Of a stretch of DNA of 64,000 nucleotides, positions 8,108 through 9,142 are shown one piece after another. The notes below the pieces were generated by a model, which saw only the letters and a list, made by a program, of their open reading frames with translations, searched no databases and was not told the origin of the DNA. Source of the DNA: a bacterium (lineage in GTDB: Bacteria; Zhuqueibacterota; Zhuqueibacteria; Residuimicrobiales; Oceaniaggregativiventaceae); NCBI GenBank assembly GCA_029565675.1, contig JAKQNP010000002.1, positions 434,001-498,000 of the forward strand, in the 5' to 3' direction. How positions within the stretch are numbered: the first letter of the stretch is position 1; each line of letters begins with the position of its first letter. Made by a program: the position numbers and the translations under genes.

Positions 8108-8818
8108 CTAGTGGTCCTTGAACGGATCCCACACTTTCCAGACATTGCCGACCAGATCGGGACCCGGTTTCAGAACTTTCTTGCCGGGTTCCCAGCCGGC
8201 GGGACAGACCTCGGCGCCTTTTTTCGAGCGCACATGCTGGTAAGCCTGAATCTGACGGATGGACTCGCTGAATTTTCGGCCGACCGGGGGCGTCAACACT
8301 TCCATGGCTTGAATAACGCCGTCAGGATCGATGATGAATCGGCCGCGGAGTTCGACTCCGGCGTTTTCATCATAGACGCCGAACAGCTTGCCGACATTGC
8401 CGGCGCCGTCGGAGGCCATATGGAAAGGGATGTCTTTTTTGACCATCTTGGACAATTCATTGTCGTTCCAAACTTTGTGCACGAACTGGCTGTCCACGCT
8501 GACCGAAATCACTTCAACACCGAGTTTTTGCAAAGTATCGTATTGTGCAGCGACCGCTGACACTTCAGTCGCTCAGACAAAGGTGAAATCGCCCGGATAG
8601 AAACAGAGCAAGACCCACTTGCCCGCGAAATCGGAAAGCTTGACTCGGGTAAAGCCGCCGCGATAATAAGCCGGCGCATCGAAATCAGGGGCTTTGGTGC
8701 CCACTCTTGCCACTGACATCTTGATCTCCTTTGCTTGGGGTTCTGTGGTCTTTTTCTCAGGCGTTTCTGGTGCCGTCGCGCCAGTCGGACGCGCGCATCC
8801 GGCATTTTCATCTGCCAT
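8108..8818 (-). CDS. Selenocysteine-containing 2-Cys-type peroxiredoxin (AhpC/TSA), UGA at 8573-8575 read as Sec
   Basis: Reduces hydrogen peroxide and organic hydroperoxides through a peroxidatic residue. Two minus-strand frames separated only by one TGA make a full peroxiredoxin: upstream [15 protein letters not shown] and [10 protein letters not shown], then UGA, then [20 protein letters not shown]. In AhpC-like proteins the residue after FTFV is the peroxidatic Cys, so UGA falls exactly on the catalytic position (residue 82, or 49 from the internal start). The resolving Cys is present ([13 protein letters not shown], residue 205). A SECIS-like hairpin follows the UGA. Two starts are possible: ATG 8818 after AGGAGGGG, or ATG 8719 ([13 protein letters not shown]) after AAAGGAG; the latter matches normal AhpC length (about 203 residues). 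An ordinary stop would leave an inactive 81-residue stub. Confidence 0.9.
8545..8575 (-). promoter_or_regulatory. Bacterial SECIS element with its UGA codon
   Basis: Starting 10 bases after the UGA, the mRNA folds as GUG, one unpaired U, CAGC, loop GGUC, GCUG, CAC. This is the arrangement of the E. coli fdhF SECIS recognised by SelB: a lower 3-bp helix, a bulged U, a short upper helix and a GGUC apical loop. The loop lies 18-21 bases after the UGA here and 19-22 in fdhF. Compared by hand from memory of fdhF. Confidence 0.85.
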
Positions 8819-9142
8819 AATTCCCCTCCTGTACTTGATTAACGCAGATCGTATCTATACAATTACTGATATTTGTTGATTAAAGATACAAACTATTCGT
8901 ATACAAAACAATCAAAAAAGCGCACTCCCAAACTCCTGCGTTTCCTGTTTTGCCAGACAAAGTGCCGAATTTATCGCGCACAATCCGAAGGAAATTTTCT
9001 GCATGCAGGAAACCGCGCGGAGTGAGGGGGCGTTTTGCCGACTCGCCGCATCCCCCGCTGAAGGGTATCGAGTCGTGTTGTGCGACGCGGAAAAACCCGC
9101 AACAATCCGATTGTCATGTTAACCGGCGATGAGGAAATGCCT
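8819..9142. other. Intergenic: AT-rich promoter zone and a GC-rich block
   Basis: 8840-8930 is AT-rich and lies upstream of the peroxiredoxin gene, so it probably holds its promoter; I see no certain -35/-10 pair or regulator box. 8978-9105 is GC-rich with short inverted repeats (GGGGG at about 9027 against CCCCC at about 9053) and encodes nothing recognisable. Confidence 0.5.

Follow-up and report, generated by a model that had tools for sequence, protein, structure and literature searches.

A covarying SECIS-type hairpin inside the coding sequence of prxU, a gene of the PrxU selenoprotein family

The gene prxU lies on the minus strand of the window, by which we mean the whole stretch of 64,000 nucleotides that was analysed. 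It contains an in-frame UGA followed by a short hairpin, and the features of the locus are as follows:

8108 to 8818, minus strand: prxU, encoding a predicted Sec-containing typical 2-Cys peroxiredoxin of 236 residues counting Sec82, with the stop codon TAG (translation with TGA read as Sec)
8823 to 8830, minus strand: AGGAGGGG, resembling a ribosome-binding site, directly 5' of the ATG (direct reading)
8573 to 8575, minus strand: in-frame UGA, read as the peroxidatic Sec82 of the motif TFVU-ATE, with the Cys of AhpC 1we0 opposite it in the alignment
8204 to 8206, minus strand: Cys205, putative resolving cysteine in EVCPAGW, which aligns with EVCPAKW of AhpC 1we0
8545 to 8563, minus strand: bacterial SECIS hairpin with lower stem GUG/CAC, bulged U, upper stem CAGC/GCUG and loop GGUC (folding and covariation)
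8560, minus strand: the bulged U, in column 16 of the alignment; 46/117 relatives share the bulge
8553 to 8554, minus strand: invariant loop dinucleotide G-U, present in 117/117 Sec relatives and 2/21 Cys homologues
8549 to 8558, minus strand: covarying wobble positions, 8558 (Ser third base) with 8549 (Ala third base) and 8555 (Ala third base) with 8552 (Val third base)

The gene product scored 399.5 bits with the NCBIfam model NF040737 (PrxU; cut-off 270) and 198.7 bits with the classical AhpC model of NCBIfam, which is below the cut-off of 272 of that model, and it possesses the Pfam domains AhpC-TSA and 1-cysPrx_C, the 1-cysPrx C-terminal domain. Solved AhpC and 2-Cys peroxiredoxins align to approximately residues 39–226, with Sec82 on the peroxidatic cysteine and Cys205 in EVCPAGW. 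As judged from its sequence, prxU adds a new member to PrxU, a selenoprotein family that was already known, and following the name given by NF040737 its product would have thioredoxin-dependent peroxidase activity. Its closest named relatives among the best 80 of 412 come from MAGs labelled candidate division KSB1 and Calditrichota. The neighbouring genes encode a NagB-like isomerase, a DUF6588 protein and a PfkB kinase and show no evident link to prxU. A mechanical listing of open reading frames splits the gene at the UGA into 8573–8818 and 8108–8563.

Read on the minus strand, 8563–8545 is GUG U CAGC GGUC GCUG CAC; the hairpin begins 9 bases past the UGA (8575–8573) and its loop 17 nt past it. 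The bare 19-mer folds into exactly this structure (−7.4 kcal/mol, z −1.98, with 6 of 200 shuffles equally good), confirming the hairpin that an earlier note on this DNA had drawn by eye, and with its real flanking bases it reaches −8.9 kcal/mol. The same note had named a folding calculation as a check; the 19-mer folds as described, but a 51-nt fold including the bases next to the UGA is no better than its shuffles (z −0.41). Its likeness to the SECIS of E. coli fdhF (MG1655) holds, since both share the topology of a GGUC loop on a 4-bp upper stem with a bulged U directly 5' of it, whereas fdhF is the gene of formate dehydrogenase H, its loop lies 1 nt further from the UGA (18 instead of 17 nt) and its lower stem is longer in the fold. 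The unpaired U of the fdhF type is thus present in the window, although it is not constant across the family.

The hairpin also agrees with the bSECIS model on all four points that are set out in the relevant part of PMC13188914. This model has an apical loop of 3–9 nt on an upper stem of 4–16 bp (here a 4-nt loop on 4 bp, with 3 bp below the bulge) and a G within the first two loop positions, mostly as N1-G-[G/U]-N with N1 and N2 paired (here GGUC, the closing pair being GC, AU or UA in 117/117 Sec sequences). It places the apical loop 16–37 nt from the UGA (here 17 nt) and has a minimum free energy of at most −7.5 kcal/mol, a value that the hairpin passes with its flanks at −8.9 and that the bare 19-mer just misses at −7.4. 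An Rfam scan of the window at gathering thresholds and of 8450–8650 at E up to 10 gave no match to a SECIS family.

How much of this structure is simply a consequence of the encoded protein? With a UCN serine codon, V-S-A-V-A dictates the pairs C17-G28, G19-C26 and C20-G25 and the loop bases G22-U23 (numbered from the U of UGA), so that the code fixes three of the four upper-stem pairs as well as the loop GU and leaves only third bases free. Because the peptide itself fixes most of it, the hairpin in a single sequence is weak and non-independent evidence. The earlier claim that it independently supports Sec insertion over a mutated stop was therefore too strong for the lone hairpin, although Sec insertion is supported when the whole family is considered. 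In one sequence the element is only moderately improbable by chance, whereas chance cannot account for it in the whole family; the independent evidence for a SECIS comes from comparing the wobble positions of the relatives.

Scanning 84,980 species genomes yielded 412 relatives, of which we used the best 80. All 80 possess TGA at the Sec82 codon, as does the window (81/81), and in all 81 the Ser and Ala codons have third bases that form a Watson-Crick pair, this being G-C in 37, A-U in 31, C-G in 11 and U-A in 2. As 2 of the 81 aligned rows are duplicates, covariation statistics were calculated on 79 distinct relatives. Here the SECIS structure shows 45 double-changed cells against 14.0 ± 5.0 in shuffles and a covariation score of 0.197 against 0.059 ± 0.008. 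The set was then enlarged with sequences from the phylum of the window (82 genomes; 20 stretches), from a Chloroflexota-centred (400 genomes) and a Thauera-centred (398 genomes) collection and from 2 plasmid records, giving 157 tblastn rows and from these 138 distinct 48-mers (117 Sec, 21 Cys), the remainder being duplicates or shorter than 45 nt. Columns 18 and 27 form a Watson-Crick pair in 115 of the 117 Sec sequences and G-U in the other two (10,000 shuffles: mean 44.3, maximum 65), and columns 21 and 24 do so in 117/117 (mean 80.9, maximum 93). A tree computed with Sec and the next ten residues excluded requires a minimum of 17 changes for the first of these pairs and 8 for the second. 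All five upper pairs are formed in 114/117 Sec sequences, while the remaining three (L118, L121 and L144) each break one. The computation shows that the hairpin structure is under selection at synonymous sites.

Another helix, which has the lowest energy among folds of the window sequence, could compete with the SECIS. It pairs AGCGACUG with CGGUCGCU, including bases beside the UGA, and over the 48-nt stretch it reaches −11.6 kcal/mol compared to −8.9 kcal/mol for the SECIS; across the family, 83.4% of the cells of this helix are paired. It might be the functional RNA, for example as a simple stimulator of stop-codon readthrough, but not one of its pairs is double-changed and 500 of 500 shuffles reach its level, whereas the SECIS shows 45 double-changed cells versus 14 in shuffles. 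In addition it would overlap the UGA itself and would need bases that are inside the decoding ribosome. With no covariation in the 79 distinct relatives the competing helix was rejected, and we regard this reading as very improbable.

The Cys homologues provide a control for the contribution of the protein. The 21 that were collected share 27.5–56% identity with the window protein (44–56% in 6 cases), and as most are distant they form a fair but not a strict control. The whole element, meaning five pairs and the loop GU, occurs in none of the 21; the four upper pairs are found in 3, with UU instead of GU in the loop, and GU at positions 22–23 is found in 2 different sequences. The nearest Cys homologue (L129; TGT, 56% identical and above the PrxU cut-off) is without the element, and so is L169 (TGC), whose genome also carries a Sec copy. 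Homologues with Cys codons that keep the hairpin, which the earlier note had named as evidence against a SECIS, thus did not turn up among the 21. Its description of the encoded residues as conserved in AhpC does not hold in general, since S-A-V-A is present in 107/117 Sec forms and in 0/21 of the listed Cys homologues, among which no close Cys orthologue with S-A-V-A was found. Directly after Sec (8570–8572 in the window) there is Ala in 101/117 and Pro in 16/117, compared to Pro or Thr in the listed Cys homologues. In the phylum of the window, 31 matches lie above the PrxU cut-off, 30 of them with TGA and 1 with TGT at the Sec codon.

The genome possesses the complete Sec machinery, with profile scores above the respective cut-off for selB (375.9 bits), selA (553.8), selD (397.5) and tRNA-Sec (73.2), the latter also found by ARAGORN with the anticodon TCA. 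Furthermore, selB was found in 10 of 10 tested genomes carrying prxU. These data bear on the idea that the UGA truly terminates translation or arose by nonsense mutation in an AhpC pseudogene, with the hairpin as a by-product of the V-S-A-V-A codons. Such an origin would account for the three upper-stem pairs and the loop GU that follow from the amino acids alone, and also for a long-context fold that is not better than shuffles, but it leaves unexplained why the wobble-site pairs change in concert and why the genome carries a full Sec machinery. Decisive, together with the covariation, is that 81/81 sequences (the best 80 of 412 and the window) have TGA at this position and encode protein beyond it, which makes a pseudogene extremely improbable. 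That the UGA encodes an ordinary amino acid in a code-4-like genetic code, so that no SECIS is needed, is extremely improbable even with in-frame UGAs in both prxU and one selD copy. TGA is a normal stop here, closing 18 of the 32 open frames in the window that have 350 codons or more (it also ends the NagB-like and PfkB genes), and the UGA of prxU stands where homologues have Cys and not Trp, the gene itself containing five TGG codons.

The selD copy just mentioned, the second in the genome (L096:576-578, G000:C9), has its in-frame TGA after Cys-Ala-Gly and is likely another selenoprotein of the genome. Past this TGA we observed a stable stem-loop (GCCAAC, loop CGA, GUUGGC). The other selD (L095, G000:C56:146760-147686) lies inside a 754-codon open frame, and as the N-terminal part of this frame resembles a cysteine desulfurase by eye, a NifS-SelD fusion is possible.

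Taken together, Sec insertion is supported by the Sec machinery, the shared UGA codon, the compensatory synonymous changes and the membership in PrxU. The hairpin is almost certainly a working bacterial SECIS, and we give a probability of about 97% to the reading that it acts inside the prxU coding sequence to give a Sec82 peroxiredoxin. With the UGA positioned in the A site, SelB carrying Sec-tRNA-Sec would bind the G-U loop and its closing pair at the top of the 4-bp upper stem, selenocysteine would be delivered at the peroxidatic position and the ribosome would run on to the TAG at 8108. The product would be a thioredoxin-dependent typical 2-Cys peroxiredoxin in which Sec82 attacks the peroxide and Cys205 from the partner subunit then resolves it; this resolving role and the catalytic roles are presumably those of typical 2-Cys peroxiredoxins in general.

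PrxU is reportedly the selenocysteine-containing peroxiredoxin of Peptoclostridium (Eubacterium) acidaminophilum described by Sohling et al. in 2001, a work that is cited in PMC9312934 and PMC8533274. The annotated prxU of this organism (L152) is 63.5% identical over 97% and has the UGA at the same codon, the same V-S-A-V-A and a hairpin in the same register, but it shows the loop AGUU on a continuous stem without bulged U instead of GGUC with a bulged U. A Sec-containing peroxiredoxin is also listed among experimentally studied prokaryotic selenoproteins in sections of PMC9312934 and PMC13188914. The Sec-AhpC of Blastococcus saxobsidens, as far as it is described in the part of PMC5330540 concerned with it, is likewise a selenoprotein of the AhpC type whose Sec codon is followed by a bSECIS, yet it uses UAG and a tRNA-Sec with CUA anticodon compared to UGA and TCA in the genome studied here. 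Analyses of covariation or of the bulged U in bacterial SECIS covering the PrxU family were not found in our searches of an open-access library. Viral contigs scanned with the prxU protein gave no relative, and a search of a phage collection gave 22 records, all below 60% identity. One of them, a Microcystis phage record (H41, MW495066.1), carries a prxU-named gene whose product is 41% identical to the window protein.

In 11 of the 80 loci, the 5-kb flank of prxU contains selA (L045, L046, L055, L061, L062, L066, L067, L077, L082, L086 and L092); 9 of these also have selB and 7 a tRNA-Sec (19 loci scanned). prxU-selA-selB-selC is a portable cassette, mostly of proteobacterial MAGs, that parallels the fdhA-selABC clusters described in the pertinent section of PMC1794560.

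Across the 117 Sec sequences the tetraloop is GGUC in 95, AGUU in 21 and UGUA in 1. The GGUC loop of the earlier note is therefore only one of three forms in which an exchangeable pair closes a G-U, in agreement with the bSECIS pattern outlined in PMC13188914. Likewise its bulged U, although present in the window and in 46 of the 117, gives way to a continuous stem in 62; in 8 only that base is paired and 1 shows neither type. Wherever column 16 is unpaired it is U (47/47), and in the 10/117 sequences where it is not U it always forms a Watson-Crick pair with column 29. The stem types go along with the residue after S-A-V-A, which is Ala (44) or Val (2) in bulged forms and mostly Asp (29) or Glu (20) in continuous forms. 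The bulged U matters in fdhF. Here we may tentatively be looking at one orthologous family with two interchangeable SECIS geometries according to this residue, both read by SelB, although the odds are rather against it. That SelB might read both is suggested by genome G003, which has one Sec gene of the bulged type and an adjoining one of the continuous type. Tandem pairs of Sec peroxiredoxin genes with UGA in both were observed at L147 (G031:C521) and L143 (G003:C118).

In summary, a structure guessed from folding by eye has become a computationally tested SECIS, and the analysis is a warning that mechanical gene finding halves the prxU enzyme at its UGA. The coding sequence bears protein and RNA constraints together, as its synonymous codons switch among four types of pair. 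If SelB proteins indeed read both geometries, the bulged U would be dispensable here and the common recognition core would be only the pair-closed G-U on four base pairs. The family offers a ready-made set of natural variants for asking which features of the SECIS loop and bulge SelB requires.
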